Shown here in pieces: positions 6,063 through 50,205 of a stretch of DNA of 64,000 bases. Source of the stretch: Malaciobacter pacificus. GTDB taxonomy: Bacteria; Campylobacterota; Campylobacteria; Campylobacterales; Arcobacteraceae. The position numbers and the translations under genes are program-made. The notes under the pieces are model-generated. The model did not search any database, was not told where the DNA came from, and saw nothing but the letters and a program-made list of their open reading frames with translations. Location: the NCBI RefSeq assembly GCF_004214795.1, contig NZ_CP035928.1:620001-684000 (forward strand), in the 5' to 3' direction. Numbering within the stretch: position 1 is the first letter of the stretch; each line of letters starts with the position of its first letter.

Positions 6063-6084
6063 TAATGATAATTGATATTAAAAT
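6063..6084 (+). promoter_or_regulatory. Second, weaker Fur-like site before the imelysin gene
   Basis: TTAATGATAATTGATATTAA contains GATAAT and GATATT hexamers in an imperfect arrangement, 18-40 bases before the imelysin ATG. It probably overlaps the -10 region. It would be the second operator of an iron-repressed promoter. Confidence 0.55.
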
Positions 6085-6101
6085 TAAAAAGGAAACAATT
6101 T

Positions 6102-7454
6102 ATGTTAAACAACGTTAAAAAAGCTTTACTTTCTGTTTCAGTAGTTACTGCCATAGCACTAACAGGATGTACAGCTTCAGATAATCAAACAGCCAAAACA
6201 GAGATTTCTTCTTCTCAATCAGTATTAAACTCTTATGCAAATATTGCATTAGCAAACTATACTGATACATTAAATGATGCAAAAGCACTAAAAAATGCAA
6301 TTGATAATTTTGCATCAAACCCAACACAAGCTACATTTAATGAAGCAAAAAAAGCTTGGTTGATTTCAAGAGAATCTTATGGTCAAACAGAAGCATTTAG
6401 ACTTTCAAATGGACCAATTGATGCGGAAGAAGGATGGGTTGCAGATTCATATGGAGCACTAGAAGGACAATTAAATGCGTGGCCACTAGATGAAAATATG
6501 ATTGATTATACAATTGATGCAGATGGTAAAAGAACTAGCGGTAATATTATCGATACAGTAGGTAAATTTAATCCAGGTGGTGAGGATTCAACTGTTGTTG
6601 ATGTAACAAAAATTACAGTTGATGCTATTACTGCATTAAATGAAAATGGTGGAGAAGCAAATGTAGCTACAGGATATCATGCCATTGAATTTTTATTATG
6701 GGGACAAGATCAAGATTATTCTAACTTCTTAAAAGATGGAATTACAAGTGGACCTTTAACAGCTGGAAATAGATTATTATCTGATTTTACAAGTGACAAA
6801 GATGCTCCTAGAAGATTAGCTTATTTACAAGCAGCTGCAAATAAAATTGTTGCAGACTTAGAGGTTATCAAAGGTGCTTGGGATAAAGATATAAATGGTA
6901 CAAATGGATTATATAGAGCAGCATTTTTAGGAAACTTAACTGGTGATGAAGCAGCTAAAAATATTGATTCAAAAGAAGCATTAAAACAAGTAATTGCAGG
7001 ACTTGGGGTATTTATTAAATCAGAACTTGCTAATGAAAGAATTGCAGTTGCTGTGTTAACTCCATCAGAAGAAGATGAACACTCTTGCTTCTCAGATAAT
7101 ACACATAGAGATATTTTAACTAATTATTTAGGATTTAAAAACTTATTAACTTCTACATATAATGGTAAAAAATATGGAGTAGCTTTACTTGATGCAGTTG
7201 ATGCAGATTCAAAAGCTAGAATTACAAAATTAATGTCTTCAATTGAAGCAAAGATAAACTCAATTGATGAAATTGCTAAAACAAAAGAACATTTTGATTA
7301 TCAAATTAAACCAACAAGTTCTCAAGCAAAAGTGATTGTAAAACTTAAAAATGAAATGAGAAAACTTGGTGATGAGATGGTTACAGTTGCAAAAGCAAAT
7401 GGGATTAGTCTAACAACTGAAGATGTAACGGATGCTGAAGAAACACAACTTTAA
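6102..7454 (+). CDS. Imelysin-family (IrpA/M75-like) periplasmic lipoprotein
   Basis: Start at ATG 6102 behind AAAAAGGA, giving 450 residues; a TTG further upstream lies in the Fur-like site and was rejected. The signal peptide ends in the lipobox LTGC with Cys23, so the protein is lipid-anchored. The imelysin hallmark GxHxxE is present as GYHAIEF (Gly191, His193, Glu196), followed by LLWGQD. Known: imelysins are iron-regulated surface or periplasmic proteins, once called peptidases, now mostly linked to iron uptake. This one heads a five-gene operon behind two Fur-type sites, supporting iron-repressed expression. The next gene overlaps its 3' end by 23 bases. Confidence 0.9.
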   Translation: MLNNVKKALLSVSVVTAIALTGCTASDNQTAKTEISSSQSVLNSYANIALANYTDTLNDAKALKNAIDNFASNPTQATFNEAKKAWLISRESYGQTEAFRLSNGPIDAEEGWVADSYGALEGQLNAWPLDENMIDYTIDADGKRTSGNIIDTVGKFNPGGEDSTVVDVTKITVDAITALNENGGEANVATGYHAIEFLLWGQDQDYSNFLKDGITSGPLTAGNRLLSDFTSDKDAPRRLAYLQAAANKIVADLEVIKGAWDKDINGTNGLYRAAFLGNLTGDEAAKNIDSKEALKQVIAGLGVFIKSELANERIAVAVLTPSEEDEHSCFSDNTHRDILTNYLGFKNLLTSTYNGKKYGVALLDAVDADSKARITKLMSSIEAKINSIDEIAKTKEHFDYQIKPTSSQAKVIVKLKNEMRKLGDEMVTVAKANGISLTTEDVTDAEETQL

Positions 7455-8826
7455 TTTAATTAAATCTGTCAAAAATCTCCTAATATCAAAAAGCCTTGTA
7501 GTCTTTGTAGCTACAGGGCTTTTTGCCGTTAATTCTCAAGGCGAATATTTATCAAGTGATAAAAATAAGTCACTATTACTAAAGCCTTATAAAAAAATGA
7601 CAGATGAAGAGTATGACATATTTATGTTAGGAAAGAGTTTTTTTAGAATCCCATGGGTTGAGTCTCCTAGTGCAACAACTGCTAGAGATGGATTAGGACC
7701 ACTATTTGATGCAAATACATGTGTTAGTTGTCATCCTGGAAATGGTAGAGGAACTTTATACTCAAAAAAAGGAAATGCTTCAAGAAGTTTAGTTGCTAGG
7801 GCTTCAATAGATTCAAATGGTAGTGAGTTACATAAGAAACTTTTGATAAATAAAGGTTTTGTTCCTGAACCTGTTTATGGTTCTCAAATATCTATTAATG
7901 GTATACATGGAGTTTTATTTGAAGGAAGAGTAGATATAAAATTTAAAGAAGTAGAAGTTGTTTTTCCTGATGGAGAGATTGATACTTTATTAAAGCCTTT
8001 ATACACTTTGAAAGATTTAAATTATGGAGAATTACATAAAGATTCAAATATCTCTTATAGAATCGCAAATAGTTTAAATGGAATGGGATTAATATCACTA
8101 ATTAGTGATGAAGATATCTTAAAAAATGAAGATGTAGAAGATAAAAATAATGATGGAATTAGTGGAAAAGCAAACTGGGTTAAATCTAAGATAAATGGTC
8201 AAAAAGAGTTGGGAAGATTTACTTGGAAAGCAAGTGTTTCTAGCTTAAAAGAGCAGGTTGCAAATGCAGCTAATAATGATATGGGATTGACAACAACATT
8301 AAATCCCCATGAAAATTGTACAAGTTTTCAAAAAGAGTGTTTAGAAGCTCCAAAGTCAAAAGATAATATTGATATTCCAGATTTTAGATTAGATGCTATA
8401 ACTTATTATTTAAAGAGTTTAAAAACATATAGTGCAAAAGAGACAAAACAGTACAAATTAGGCTTAAAAATTTTTGAAAAAGTAGGTTGCGTAAAGTGTC
8501 ACATAAGTAGTTTTAATACTATAAATGGACAAGAAATTAAACCCTTTTCAGATTTTTTATTACATGATATGGGTGAAGAGTTATCAGATGGTAGAGTTGA
8601 ATTTGAAGCCTCTAAAAGTGAGTTTAGAACAGCACCTTTATGGGGATTAGCCCTTCATGAAAAAATAAATAAAACAAAACCACGATTATTACATGATGGA
8701 AGAGCTAGAGATTTCCAAGAAGCTATTTTATGGCATGGTGGTGAGGCAAGAGATGCTAAAGTAAACTATATGAATTTAGCAAAAAATGAAAGAAAAATTT
8801 TAATTGAATTTTTAAAAGGATTATAA
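7432..8826 (+). CDS. Di-heme oxidoreductase (DUF1111 / COG3488 type)
   Basis: 464 residues. A signal peptide-like segment runs from about residue 15 to 37. Two c-type heme sites are present: CVSCH at 97-101 and CVKCH at 353-357. Between them is the region typical of di-heme thiol-oxidoreductase/peroxidase-like proteins (RDGLGPLFDANTC, LLHDGRARDFQEAI near the C-terminus). The start codon ATG 7432 lies inside the imelysin gene (23-bp overlap), with only a weak GG element before it, so translation is probably coupled. Proteins of this family accompany imelysins in iron-regulated loci; an electron-transfer role in periplasmic iron handling is inferred. Confidence 0.9.
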   Translation: MLKKHNFNLIKSVKNLLISKSLVVFVATGLFAVNSQGEYLSSDKNKSLLLKPYKKMTDEEYDIFMLGKSFFRIPWVESPSATTARDGLGPLFDANTCVSCHPGNGRGTLYSKKGNASRSLVARASIDSNGSELHKKLLINKGFVPEPVYGSQISINGIHGVLFEGRVDIKFKEVEVVFPDGEIDTLLKPLYTLKDLNYGELHKDSNISYRIANSLNGMGLISLISDEDILKNEDVEDKNNDGISGKANWVKSKINGQKELGRFTWKASVSSLKEQVANAANNDMGLTTTLNPHENCTSFQKECLEAPKSKDNIDIPDFRLDAITYYLKSLKTYSAKETKQYKLGLKIFEKVGCVKCHISSFNTINGQEIKPFSDFLLHDMGEELSDGRVEFEASKSEFRTAPLWGLALHEKINKTKPRLLHDGRARDFQEAILWHGGEARDAKVNYMNLAKNERKILIEFLKGL

Positions 8827-9770
8827 TGAAAAAAATATTTGTGTTTATGTTTTTAAATTTAGGAATATTATTTGCTCAAGATAGAGCTTTTACTTCTATT
8901 TTAAAAAATGTTTCAATAGTTGATGTTAATGAAGCTATAAAAAATGCTCAAAATTTAGAAAAGAGTTTCTCAAAAGATGATTTTACAAAGTTTGTACAAT
9001 CATGGAAAGAAGTAGAGACAATGTATTTTGGTGGGGATATTGATGAAAATTATATTGATACTCCAAGATATATTGATGTATTTCACAATTTAAAAGAGGA
9101 TTTATCTGCACAAATGCAAAGGGTAATTGAATCAAAAGATGAGCCAAATATTGCACTGTTTAAAAACTCTTTTAAAACAATAAATGCTTTAGAGTATATT
9201 CTTTATAATGACAAAGAGATAACACAAAGAGAAAAAGAGTTAGCAAAAGCTGTGATTGCTAATATAATCTCTCACTTAAATGATATAAAAGAAGTCTATA
9301 CAAACTATTTAAATGGTCAGCAAAAAGAAGAAGCTTGGGAGAATGCTGTTGTATTAAATACTTTAATTGCTTCAACTTATAAACTTAAAGAGTGGAGAAT
9401 TGGTGACCCAGCTGGATTTACTGCTAAATATAAAAATGATTTAGATAACACTAGAGGTGAATATTTTTTAAGTCAAAACTCATTTAATGCAATTAAAGCA
9501 ATTGTAAATGCACATGAAGAAGTAGTAGGAAATAAATCTTATTATAATTTTGCTTCTATGGCAAAACACAGTGATGCAAAAAATGAAATCAAAGAGGTTC
9601 ATGTAGCTATAGAAGAGATTAAAATTGCTTTATCTAAAATCAAAAAAGATGATTTTAAAAATGCTCAAGAGTTATATAAAGCAGTTAGTAATTTACATAA
9701 TGCATATTATTTATCATTAACAACTCAACTCTCTGTTACTGCAAAAATCTTAGATGCAGATGGTGATTAA
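8826..9770 (+). CDS. Second imelysin-like periplasmic protein
   Basis: 314 residues with a signal peptide (MKKIFVFMFLNLGILFAQD). The helical composition and the segment INALEYILYND (aligned with the HxxE region of imelysins but lacking the His) fit the shorter imelysin-like group next to DUF1111 proteins. KEWRIGDPAGF also fits this group. The start overlaps the preceding stop by one base (TAATG), indicating coupling. The missing His suggests that the metal site differs from that of the upstream lipoprotein. Family assignment is good; the exact role in iron handling is unknown. Confidence 0.8.
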   Translation: MKKIFVFMFLNLGILFAQDRAFTSILKNVSIVDVNEAIKNAQNLEKSFSKDDFTKFVQSWKEVETMYFGGDIDENYIDTPRYIDVFHNLKEDLSAQMQRVIESKDEPNIALFKNSFKTINALEYILYNDKEITQREKELAKAVIANIISHLNDIKEVYTNYLNGQQKEEAWENAVVLNTLIASTYKLKEWRIGDPAGFTAKYKNDLDNTRGEYFLSQNSFNAIKAIVNAHEEVVGNKSYYNFASMAKHSDAKNEIKEVHVAIEEIKIALSKIKKDDFKNAQELYKAVSNLHNAYYLSLTTQLSVTAKILDADGD

Positions 9771-9772
9771 TA

Positions 9773-10687
9773 TTGAATGAATTTTATGCTTTAGAGTATT
9801 TTATAAATCCAGGAAAGAGACTTTACTGGATTTATATTATTAGTTCAGTGTTATTAGCAATAATATATTTTTACTATACAAAAAAGAGTAATAGATTAAT
9901 AACTTCTTCAAAACTTTGGCTACATCCTAGTGCAAAGTTAGATTATTATTACTTTTTTGTATCTTATTTTATAAATATATTATTGTTAATACCACTAATT
10001 GTAAGTGCTAAAACAGTTGCTTTGAGTGTAAATAAGTTTTTATTTTTACAATTTGATTATTTTGAAAATACACTATTTTCATATAGTCAAATTGTAGTGA
10101 TGTATACAATAGCATTATTTATCGTAAGTGATTTTACAAGATATTGGCTTCATAGATTTTTACATACTATACCAGTACTTTGGGAATTTCATAAGGTACA
10201 TCACAGTGCAAAAGTATTAACACCATTTACATTTTATAGAGTTCATCCTGTTGAAAATTTACTTTTTGGTATACGTTATAGTTTAAGTATTGGATTAGTA
10301 ACAGGAGTATTCATTTACTTTTTTGGTGCAATGATAAATATAAAAATGGTTTTAGGGGTTAATATAATTTTATTTATATTTTCAATTTTTGGTTCAAATT
10401 TGAGACATTCTCATGTACCTTTTTCTTATGGTAGGATATTAGAAAAAGTATTTATGTCTCCAAAGCAACATCAAGTTCATCATAGTAAAAAACATTTTAA
10501 TAAAAATTATGGTGGATACCTCTCACTTTGGGATAATATTTTTGGTAGTTTAAAATTATCCCATGAAGTTAAGGTTTTAAAATTTGGATTAAGAGCTGAG
10601 CAGATGAGTGATTATAATTCTATTTCAAAAGTTCTAATTAAACCATTTTTAAATTTGCCACAAGTATTTAGTAGGAGAAAAAAATGA
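9773..10687 (+). CDS. Sterol desaturase / fatty acid hydroxylase family membrane protein
   Basis: 304 residues with about four to five hydrophobic segments. The di-iron histidine motifs of the superfamily are visible: HRFLH, HKVHH, and HQVHHSKKH, with DFTRYWLHR before the first. Known members use O2 and a non-heme di-iron centre to hydroxylate or desaturate lipids, in the membrane. The start appears to be TTG 9773, two bases after the imelysin stop, with GATGGTG as a weak ribosome site; no in-frame ATG gives the conserved start. Its place within an iron-repressed operon is odd, because it is an iron-dependent enzyme. The substrate is unknown. Confidence 0.85.
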   Translation: MNEFYALEYFINPGKRLYWIYIISSVLLAIIYFYYTKKSNRLITSSKLWLHPSAKLDYYYFFVSYFINILLLIPLIVSAKTVALSVNKFLFLQFDYFENTLFSYSQIVVMYTIALFIVSDFTRYWLHRFLHTIPVLWEFHKVHHSAKVLTPFTFYRVHPVENLLFGIRYSLSIGLVTGVFIYFFGAMINIKMVLGVNIILFIFSIFGSNLRHSHVPFSYGRILEKVFMSPKQHQVHHSKKHFNKNYGGYLSLWDNIFGSLKLSHEVKVLKFGLRAEQMSDYNSISKVLIKPFLNLPQVFSRRKK

Positions 10688-11805
10688 AATATTTTTTAGT
10701 TTTAGGTATTTTTAATATCTTTTGTTTTGCTGCAACTAGTAATCAAGCAGTAAAAGAGAACTTAGGTCAAGCACTATTTTTAGATGCAAACCTATCAAAA
10801 AATAGAACAATGTCTTGTGCAACTTGTCATAATCCAAGTGCAGGTTTTGTAGATGATAGAGATAATGGTGTTGCTAAAATGGCATCTTTAGGTGATGATG
10901 GAAAATCTCTAGGAGATAGAAATGCTCCAATTGCTGCTTATGCAAAGTTCTCTCCAAAATTTCATTTTGATGAAAAAAATAAAGTTTATAAAGGTGGTCA
11001 ATTTTGGGATGGGCGAGCTAATACTTTAGAAGAACAAGCAGGAGGACCACCTCTTAATCCTATTGAGATGGGAATGGCTTCTAAAGAAGAAGTTGTTGAA
11101 AGATTAAAAGAGAATAGTTATTATGTGAGTACTTTTAAAGAGTTATATGGAGATAATATTTTTGAAGATTTAAATAAAGCTTATAATGCTATGACTGAGG
11201 TTATTGCAACTTTTGAAAGAACAGAACAATTTTCACCTTTTGACTCAAAATATGATAAGTTTTTAAGAGGGGAATATGATTTAACTGTTTTAGAAGACTT
11301 AGGTAGAACAATATTCTTCTCAAACAATAATAACTCTTGTATAAATTGCCATGTATTAAAAGTTGAAGACGCTCCTATGGAAACATTTACTAACTATGAA
11401 TATCATAATATTGGGGTTCCTATAAATGAAGCTTTAAGATCAAAAAATGGTGTAAAAGAGATAGATAAAGGTTTACTAGCAAATCCTTTAGTAAATGATG
11501 AAGCACAAAAAGGTAAGTATAAAGTTCCCACACTTAGAAATATAGCAGTAACTGCACCTTATATGCATAATGGAGTATTTAAAGATTTAAAAACAGTAGT
11601 TGAGTTTTATGATAAATATAACAATAAAGATAGAACTATAAACCCTGAGACAGGTAAACCTTGGAGAGAGCCTGAAGTTAAAGAGACAATATCCCTTGAT
11701 GATTTAAAAGCAAAAAAGTTAACTGATAGAAAAGTTGAAGCATTAGTTGCTTTTATGAAACTTTTAACTGATGAGAAGTATGAACATCTTTTAGAAAATA
11801 AATAG
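10684..11805 (+). CDS. Di-heme cytochrome c peroxidase / MauG family
   Basis: 373 residues with a signal peptide (about 1-17). Two heme c sites: CATCH at 45-49 and CINCH at 219-223. The order and spacing match bacterial di-heme peroxidases/MauG proteins. LDANLSKNRTMSCATC, FWDGRANTLEEQAGGP and YMHNGVFKDL are characteristic of the family. Acting in the periplasm, it would reduce peroxide using cytochrome c electrons, or oxidise a protein partner as MauG does. The start overlaps the preceding stop (ATGA). It is the fifth gene of the Fur-box operon. Confidence 0.9.
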   Translation: MKYFLVLGIFNIFCFAATSNQAVKENLGQALFLDANLSKNRTMSCATCHNPSAGFVDDRDNGVAKMASLGDDGKSLGDRNAPIAAYAKFSPKFHFDEKNKVYKGGQFWDGRANTLEEQAGGPPLNPIEMGMASKEEVVERLKENSYYVSTFKELYGDNIFEDLNKAYNAMTEVIATFERTEQFSPFDSKYDKFLRGEYDLTVLEDLGRTIFFSNNNNSCINCHVLKVEDAPMETFTNYEYHNIGVPINEALRSKNGVKEIDKGLLANPLVNDEAQKGKYKVPTLRNIAVTAPYMHNGVFKDLKTVVEFYDKYNNKDRTINPETGKPWREPEVKETISLDDLKAKKLTDRKVEALVAFMKLLTDEKYEHLLENK

Positions 11806-11848
11806 TAAAAAATAGTTACAATAGTTTAATTTTACATAAGGATATCGT

Positions 11849-12532
11849 ATCAAAATTCTATTTATCACACTATTTTTTACATTTAGTTTATTCGCTAATT
11901 TTGAAAATGATTTCAAAGATTTAGAGAATAAAAAAGAACAAATTATTAATAATTATAAAATTCGAATAGAACTTGCGAAAATTGAGGATAAAAAAATTAG
12001 ATATGAAATATTAAGTAATACTTTAAAATGTATTAATAATTCTAGAAGTAGTACAGAGTTAGATGCTTGTAAAGCACAAGAAAATTCAATTTTAATGGAT
12101 TATATAAATAAAGACTTTGATAGTAGTAAAGAGTTTACTATTATCAAAAATAGAGTTTTAATTGAGTATAAGGCTAAGTACTTAAAGACAAAACAGAAAG
12201 TAAAAAAAGAACTTATAAATCAAACTTTAAAATGCATAAAAACTTCAAAAAACTCTAATGATATAAATAGTTGTAAACACAATGAATCAATTAATTTAGA
12301 AAAAATATATCTTAGCTATGAAGATAATCCAAGATTAAAAAATATTATTGATAAAGATGAATTAATAAATAGATATCAAATAAGAATTGAAATGGCAAAA
12401 CTTGATAATGATATCTCAAAAGTTGAAATTTTTTCAAAGACTCTAAAGTGTTTTGAATCTTCACGAACAAAAAGAGATATCTATTTTTGTAAAAATAATG
12501 AGAAGAACAGAATTATTAAATATCTAAACTGA
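11849..12532 (+). CDS. Exported three-repeat CX12C protein with apparent ATC start
   Basis: The frame opens after a TAA at about 11836. Read from ATC 11849 it gives 227 residues beginning with a convincing signal peptide (KILFITLFFTFSLFAN). AAGGA (11838-11842) sits six bases before that ATC, ideal spacing. No ATG, GTG or TTG occurs in frame until ATG 12095, which would remove the signal peptide and the whole first repeat. The mature protein is three helical units of about 70 residues, each with TLKC(I/F)xxS and a second Cys after exactly 12 residues: C61/C74, C129/C142, C201/C214. Each pair probably forms a disulfide. Family unknown. Either an unusual start codon or a recently lost ATG explains the structure. 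It follows the peroxidase gene by 43 bases. Confidence 0.65.
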   Translation: MKILFITLFFTFSLFANFENDFKDLENKKEQIINNYKIRIELAKIEDKKIRYEILSNTLKCINNSRSSTELDACKAQENSILMDYINKDFDSSKEFTIIKNRVLIEYKAKYLKTKQKVKKELINQTLKCIKTSKNSNDINSCKHNESINLEKIYLSYEDNPRLKNIIDKDELINRYQIRIEMAKLDNDISKVEIFSKTLKCFESSRTKRDIYFCKNNEKNRIIKYLN

Positions 12533-12591: not shown

Positions 12592-13296
12592 ATGTCAAAA
12601 AAAGTACTTATAACTGGTGGTAACAAAGGGATAGGTCTTTGTGTTTCAAGAGCTATGTTAGAGTTTGGATATGAAATAGTAATTGTAGCAAGAGATTTTG
12701 AAGATTGTCCAATAGTTGGTGTTGAAAATGTTACAGCTATTGAATATGATTTATCAGATGTTGATAATTTACCAAAGCTTATGGAAGAGGTTGGTGAAGT
12801 TGATATTCTAATCAATAACGCTGGATATATGCAACCTAAATATACTTATGATAACTATCCTAAAGAAGCAAAAGAGCATCTTATGAATGTTGATTTACAC
12901 ACTCCCGTTGAATTAATGAACCTAGTTAGTGTTTCAATGAAAAAGAAAAAATTTGGAAGAATCGTAAACACAGCTTCAATTGCAGGACAAATTGGACATC
13001 CTGATGTTTGGTATGGTATTGCAAAAGCTGGACTTATAAATGCAACAAAAATATATGCAAAACTATTAGGGACTGATGGAATTACAGTTAATTGTGTTGC
13101 ACCAAGTGCAGCTGAAACTGGAATGCAAAAAGATAATGATGAGGCAAGAAAAAAGGCTTTTAAAGCAGCAGTTGTAACAAACAGATTTGCTGAACCTGAA
13201 GAAGTAGCGAAAGCTATTGTTTGGTTAGCAACGGATTGTCCTGAGTATATAAATGGAATAACAATAGATATAAATAATTGTTTTTATCCAAGGTAA
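12592..13296 (+). CDS. Short-chain dehydrogenase/reductase (SDR)
   Basis: 234 residues, typical classical SDR length. The nucleotide-binding motif TGGNKGIG is at the N-terminus, followed by NNAG at about residue 74. The catalytic Ser lies in NTASIAGQIG and the catalytic Tyr/Lys in YGIAK. The ending NGITIDINNC occupies the place of the usual C-terminal GG motif. Strong ribosome site GAGGAGA. It is flanked by the CX12C protein and the chemoreceptor, 28 bases before the latter. The family reduces or oxidises small carbonyl/alcohol substrates with NAD(P)H; the substrate cannot be inferred here. Confidence 0.9.
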   Translation: MSKKVLITGGNKGIGLCVSRAMLEFGYEIVIVARDFEDCPIVGVENVTAIEYDLSDVDNLPKLMEEVGEVDILINNAGYMQPKYTYDNYPKEAKEHLMNVDLHTPVELMNLVSVSMKKKKFGRIVNTASIAGQIGHPDVWYGIAKAGLINATKIYAKLLGTDGITVNCVAPSAAETGMQKDNDEARKKAFKAAVVTNRFAEPEEVAKAIVWLATDCPEYINGITIDINNCFYPR

Positions 13297-49342: not shown

Positions 49343-49359
49343 ATTAAATAAGGAATATA

Positions 49360-50205
49360 ATGAAAAAAACTCTTTTTATAATTTTACTATTAAGTAGTAT
49401 GGTTTATGCAAATACTCAACTTTCATATGAATACGGAAATAAAGATTATAATAATTCAATGACAAAAATTGATGGAAAAGTACAAAATATAAATTATAAA
49501 TATTTTGATAAAAAGCAAGAACTAAACTTAAGTATGCAATCAGATAATGTTAATAGAAAACACTCAATTACAAATGTAAGTTTACCATCTTTAGATGTTG
49601 AAAAATATAGTGCAAAATACTCATATAATCTAAATAATGTTTTAGCTTTAAAAGGCTCTTTTATAAAAATTATAGATAATTTAGCTCCAACTGATTAGGG
49701 AAAAATTTATGGAGTTGGTGCAACTTATAATATTTCAAAAGCTCTTATTAGTTCAATTAATTATTATAAAAGTGATTACAAAGATTTTGACGTAAATCAA
49801 TATGATATTAGTTTATCAAAAGCTTTTAAAATCAATAATTTGAGGCTTAAAGCAACAATCCTTGCAAAAAAAATAGATATTGATGGCAATAAATATGGTG
49901 CATATACTTTTAAAGATAGAGATTATTTTACTACAGGCTTAAAACTTGCAGGAAATTATAATGGATTTATTACAGGCTTTGCCGCTTTCTTTGGAGAGAG
50001 AATTTTTACAGTTTTAGATGATGGTATGAAAGTTCAACACCATGCAATGCAACAAGATAAAACATATATGTTTTCATTTGGTAAAAAGTTTAAAAACTTT
50101 GATATTATTGCAAAGTATTCATATCAAAATGGAAAAGAACTACCAGAAAATAGAGATGATGTAGATACAAAAGTAACTTCAATACTTTTTTCATATAAAT
50201 TTTAA
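49360..50205 (+). pseudogene. Small outer-membrane beta-barrel-like gene interrupted by one in-frame TAG
   Basis: The frame runs for 281 codons with a single TAG at codon 113 (49696-49698) between GCTCCAACTGAT and GGAAAAATTTATGG. Before it is a signal peptide (MKKTLFIILLLSSMVYA) and alternating beta-type sequence; after it the same style continues to a C-terminal FSYKF, an outer membrane barrel ending in Phe. There is no frameshift, and a single base change from CAG, AAG or GAG would restore the gene. It lies 17 bases behind a Zur-like palindrome. It may be a fresh pseudogene, a base error, or a readthrough product. The intact form would be a roughly 260-residue porin-like protein, perhaps for zinc. 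Confidence 0.75.

Follow-up and report, generated by a model that had tools for sequence, protein, structure and literature searches.

A predicted exported CX12C-repeat protein of Malaciobacter pacificus whose gene probably starts at a conserved ATC codon

The CX12C gene and its surroundings

The window analysed here is a 64,000-nucleotide stretch of the genome of Malaciobacter pacificus, a member of the Arcobacteraceae whose genome of 2.66 Mb lies in a single contig. Between the genes for a di-haem cytochrome c peroxidase and a short-chain dehydrogenase, an open frame follows an ATC codon (Table 1), and the first ATG, GTG or TTG in this frame is an ATG at 12095, its codon 83. After the ATC the frame begins IKILFITLFFTFSLFA, which was recognised by inspection as a signal peptide, and three repeats follow with Cys residues at 61/74, 129/142 and 201/214, 12 residues inside every pair, at repeat-to-repeat distances of 68 and 72 residues. 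The ATC frame, the signal peptide, the three CX12C repeats and the first canonical start at codon 83 had all been described in an earlier sequence-only reading, and each was confirmed. The ribosome site, which that reading had called ideal, is average instead: its predicted Shine-Dalgarno pairing of -4.9 kcal/mol lies close to the genome median (-5.4) and is exceeded in strength by 58% of the sampled genes.

Table 1. Features at and around the CX12C gene, in window coordinates
Feature	Position	Strand	Remark
Cluster of imelysin, DHOR di-haem oxidoreductase, imelysin, fatty acid hydroxylase and CCP/MauG peroxidase	6072-11805	+	
Di-haem cytochrome c peroxidase (CCP_MauG)	10684-11805	+	neighbour in 9/16 readable ortholog loci
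TACAAT, candidate sigma-70 -10 box	11817-11822	+	possible own promoter
In-frame TAA	11837-11839	+	upstream bound of the CX12C frame
Shine-Dalgarno AAGGA	11838-11842	+	spacer to ATC of 6; anti-Shine-Dalgarno duplex -4.9 kcal/mol
CX12C gene	11849-12532	+	signal peptide and three three-helix repeats; 227 residues, stop TGA
ATC, probable start codon of the CX12C gene	11849-11851	+	homologous-site codons of orthologs in text
Signal peptide (M)KILFITLFFTFSLFA	11849-11896	+	by inspection
Repeat 1 (Cys61/Cys74)	11897-12115	+	most similar to single-domain orthologs
Repeat 2 (Cys129/Cys142)	12110-12313	+	furthest diverged of the three
Repeat 3 (Cys201/Cys214)	12314-12529	+	
Short-chain dehydrogenase	12592-13296	+	downstream neighbour in several orthologs

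In nine of the 16 readable ortholog loci described below, the CX12C gene lies downstream of a fatty acid hydroxylase and a di-haem cytochrome c peroxidase, and the gene is possibly tied to the di-haem peroxidase/imelysin cluster. The hydroxylase and the CCP/MauG peroxidase are conserved beside it in several genera. These neighbours mostly start with ATG. Among the copies tabulated, the peroxidase, taken as a control gene, departs from it twice, once with TTG and once with GTG, whereas every copy of the short-chain dehydrogenase has ATG. Boxes resembling TATAAT, TATTAT or TAGAAT stand at a comparable upstream distance in most CX12C orthologs. At four loci of one genus (L017, L019-L021) the leader is very short and opens with about seven A directly behind a GATAGAAT or GATAAAAT box; where a transcript begins, such a run could give rise to polymerase slippage.

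Start codons and selection among the orthologs

A family search of 104 Arcobacteraceae genomes returned matches in 18, M. pacificus (G000) included, and 16 of these orthologs, again counting G000, could be read at the start, after a copy cut by a contig end (G142) and a distant, ATG-started copy (G013) were left out. A weak match in G061 (L008), in which the Cys pair is missing, was set aside as probably due to chance. At the homologous place, ATC stands in six orthologs (G000, G100, and G005, G053, G058 and G022, the last four being the Poseidonibacter genus group), ATT in one (G002), TTG in seven (G034, G114, G116, G120, G113, G105 and G108) and ATG in two (G123 and G115). The rare start codon that the sequence-only reading offered as one option is thereby supported: five other species have ATC at this position and one more has ATT, while ATG occurs there in only two of the 16. 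The spacer from the Shine-Dalgarno sequence to the start is six bases in most of the readable orthologs and 5-9 across all. The ortholog tree demands at least five changes of start codon, with many of its forks poorly resolved, and the 16 orthologs are not independent, given that four of the ATC cases fall in one genus.

Canonical starts inside or before the frame were also followed through the orthologs. In Poseidonibacter ostreae (G058, locus L028), only codon 91 of the 98 in the frame is a canonical start, and the CX12C protein can therefore be obtained from none; in G100, no ATG, GTG or TTG occurs before the middle of the domain. G005 and G022 carry a TTG three codons past the ATC, which could act as an alternative, poorly spaced start. 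Three TTG-started orthologs (G116, G120 and G108) have an in-frame ATG farther upstream, which is not common to the orthologs and comes without a Shine-Dalgarno sequence. Relatives starting at the position of 12095 and devoid of the signal peptide were looked for among the orthologs, and none was found.

The coding sequence behind the Poseidonibacter ATC starts is under purifying selection. In the mature part of the four ATC-started Poseidonibacter-group sequences, dN is 0.026-0.086 and dS 0.40-1.04; furthermore, the signal peptides of G053 and G022 differ by three synonymous changes and no replacement, and the hydrophobic stretch with its LFA, LNA or LSA end is retained across the orthologs. 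Judged by these substitution patterns, the CX12C gene is very probably translated and selected in the species where ATC starts it. Since dN is far below dS in these ATC-started genes, both the sequencing-error reading and the fresh-pseudogene reading are removed for the family, and the combination of weak starts across the orthologs with purifying selection indicates that the mostly non-AUG start is old and maintained.

For M. pacificus itself, a recent mutation of ATG to ATC that left a young disabled frame, as the sequence-only reading had also considered, would agree with the ATG starts of distant relatives and with the nonsense codons that break at least two other genes of this genome. It is nonetheless improbable, as ATC recurs in five other species, four of them (Poseidonibacter) under strong purifying selection, and the M. 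pacificus frame is open for about 230 codons with six of six Cys retained; a lone sequencing error is likewise countered by the recurrence of ATC in other species. G000 sits on a long branch, with neither a second species of its genus nor another close relative among the genomes compared, and the case for the M. pacificus copy therefore rests on its open frame and kept motif. This copy could itself be decaying, its frame intact nonetheless.

Other routes of initiation were weighed as well. Initiation at another nearby non-canonical codon, with the ATC incidental, has candidates in single species, namely an ATT at codon 3 in the window, an ATT before the ATC in G005 and G058, and the TTG at codon 4 in G005 and G022. 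However, the ATC position alone is common to the species, at the spacing of the TTG and ATG starts of the orthologs, and initiation at codon 4 would deprive the signal peptide of its basic N-terminus, so this route too is given little credence. Less credible still is a frameshift from an upstream out-of-frame ATG or a coupling to the upstream gene. In G053 and G002, slippery-like stretches rich in A stand before the ATC or ATT and out-of-frame ATGs lie upstream, and in M. pacificus the CCP gene ends 43 bases before the ATC; yet no upstream ATG is common to the orthologs, and none is near in G000, G058 or G022. In G022 and G058, the upstream gene is divergent, which rules coupling out there and makes it unlikely in general.

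As background, 464 kb of the M. pacificus genome were sampled, made up of the window and 20 further stretches amounting to 400 kb, and the confidently called genes of this sample start with ATG in about 88%, TTG in 7% and GTG in 5%. A scan by coding score gave about 395 called frames in the same 464 kb, a noisy set whose top rows are mostly antisense shadows of repeat genes. Its sole similar case, a frame for a signal-peptide protein of more than 300 codons that lacks a canonical start (L047:5718-6660, forward strand), is by its sequence a nonsense-broken gene: a normal ATG is present, and a TAA follows it at codon 7. Frames were also compared between M. pacificus and one Poseidonibacter-group genome, where greedy filtering left few antisense shadows, and among the 95 matched pairs no second intact gene was seen with conserved coding sequence well before its first canonical start. 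The other clear case among these pairs is a gene for a porin-like exported protein (window 49359-50205, forward strand) with one in-frame TAG at 49696-49698; its relative in the Poseidonibacter-group genome (L118) is uninterrupted, and the window copy is probably a pseudogene or an assembly error.

A family of small, putatively exported proteins

The relatives of the window gene have one CX12C domain each and mostly measure about 87-94 residues with the signal peptide counted; three domains occur in M. pacificus only. Searches of Pfam, NCBIfam, PHROGs and PDB sequences for a named family gave only sub-threshold matches, which were inconsistent between members. A likeness to CX(n)C hairpins of the LprI/DUF1311 type was dropped, being absent from every Pfam scan listing. 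The single domain was modelled as three helices with a pLDDT of 89, the two Cys standing on either side of the turn that joins helices 2 and 3, while the full-length three-repeat model was poor (pLDDT 62). Fold searches with the single domain gave a best Foldseek E of 2.1 and a best VIA-align match of Z 7.2 (rmsd 3.4, 69 aligned), which is within the range of generic helical bundles.

More distant Campylobacterota proteins (L091, L092, L094 and L095) resemble the CX12C gene product in their signal peptide, mostly helical character by sequence and C(12)C[KR] signature. They differ from the window gene in ATG starts, a single domain and a weak sequence match, and are unnamed in Pfam. Since these distant relatives use ATG, the weak start appears, from the sequences compared, to be a derived feature of the Arcobacteraceae CX12C subgroup; with ATG in two orthologs as well, the weakness of the start is not universal. 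Together, these CX12C proteins, small and exported by prediction, define a Campylobacterota family that has so far had no name.

Weak initiation and its possible purpose

The codon and its position are conserved, a usable canonical start is missing, and the coding sequence is under purifying selection. The explanation we favour, with a probability of roughly 0.8, is that of an intact gene initiated at AUC with fMet at low efficiency, the weak start being kept and limiting the dose of an exported helical protein. Translation would begin at the AUC at 11849, six bases past an ordinary Shine-Dalgarno sequence, where the initiator fMet-tRNA (anticodon CAU) would pair with a third-position mismatch and initiate inefficiently. 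By keeping AUC, AUU or UUG in this position, and only seldom AUG, the orthologs would cap their protein output, and in the AUC and AUU members IF3 would likely repress initiation further. The signal peptide would then export the product, which is predicted to fold into units of three helices, with a single Cys-Cys bridge probably spanning a helical hairpin in each unit. The odd start is maintained in evolution, probably as a means of holding the protein level low. As a statement on the whole set of orthologs, we consider the odds about even that weakness of the start is itself the conserved property, with AUC, AUU and UUG interchanging at a fixed Shine-Dalgarno distance, AUG mostly avoided, and AUC usual in one genus.

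Precedents for a conserved AUH start are found in infC, pcnB, cvfC1 and ccpN. In E. coli, the conserved AUU start of infC and pcnB reportedly limits translation; these genes are similar to the CX12C gene in their conserved AUH start, but they encode cytosolic housekeeping proteins and use AUU rather than AUC. As in this class, the codon is conserved between species here (among the 16 readable orthologs, six have ATC and one has ATT), and a selected coding sequence lacks a usable canonical start (codon 91 of 98 in G058, with dN far below dS). The starts of cvfC1 (AUU) and ccpN (AUA) of Staphylococcus aureus are conserved across species as well (PMC13009471), and S. aureus reporters in poor medium yield about 10% of the AUG output from AUU or AUA (PMC13009471). 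Unlike the CX12C gene with its average Shine-Dalgarno sequence, cvfC1 and ccpN depend on an extended, strong one (PMC13009471), and a further difference is that the CX12C orthologs swap among AUC, AUU and UUG. No extended, unusually strong Shine-Dalgarno was found in the ATC and ATT members, whose predicted pairing of -4.9 to -6.0 kcal/mol brackets the genome median of -5.4; we take the extended Shine-Dalgarno to belong to the S. aureus genes and not to the AUH-start class in general. The TTG and ATG members mostly pair at -3.8 to -5.1 kcal/mol, and the slightly stronger predicted pairing of the ATC and ATT members hints at compensation.

A variant of the favoured explanation, compatible with it, is that the weak start was selected for IF3-dependent regulation, as in infC, and not for low dose. 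AUU, AUC and AUA are discriminated by IF3, while AUG, GUG and UUG are not (PMC4611024), so the AUC and AUU members would be open to such control. The variant is nevertheless rather unlikely, as UUG in seven orthologs and AUG in two argue against its holding family-wide, and infC of Arcobacteraceae, found with PF05198 (L053-L082), itself uses TTG, at a conserved position, as the start of 29 out of 29 readable copies. In E. coli and S. aureus, by contrast, infC has AUU and AUA starts, and TTG, unlike these, is not subject to IF3 discrimination. Because UUG, used by seven orthologs, is not discriminated by IF3, dose limitation is ranked above IF3 control for the family as a whole.

To our knowledge, no conserved AUC-start gene has been described in bacteria, and limited literature searching found no natural example; the one ATC case looked at, in a disrupted gene of Neisseria, was reported as a start codon that had probably mutated. 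If true, conservation between species would make AUC a natural start codon of an uncommon kind. Gene finders restricted to ATG, GTG and TTG miss or misplace genes that begin with AUC. In conclusion, the CX12C gene, as a clear evolutionary case, joins a handful of genes whose poor start codon selection seems to maintain, and its set of orthologs with AUC, AUU, UUG and AUG makes the reason for a weak start testable.
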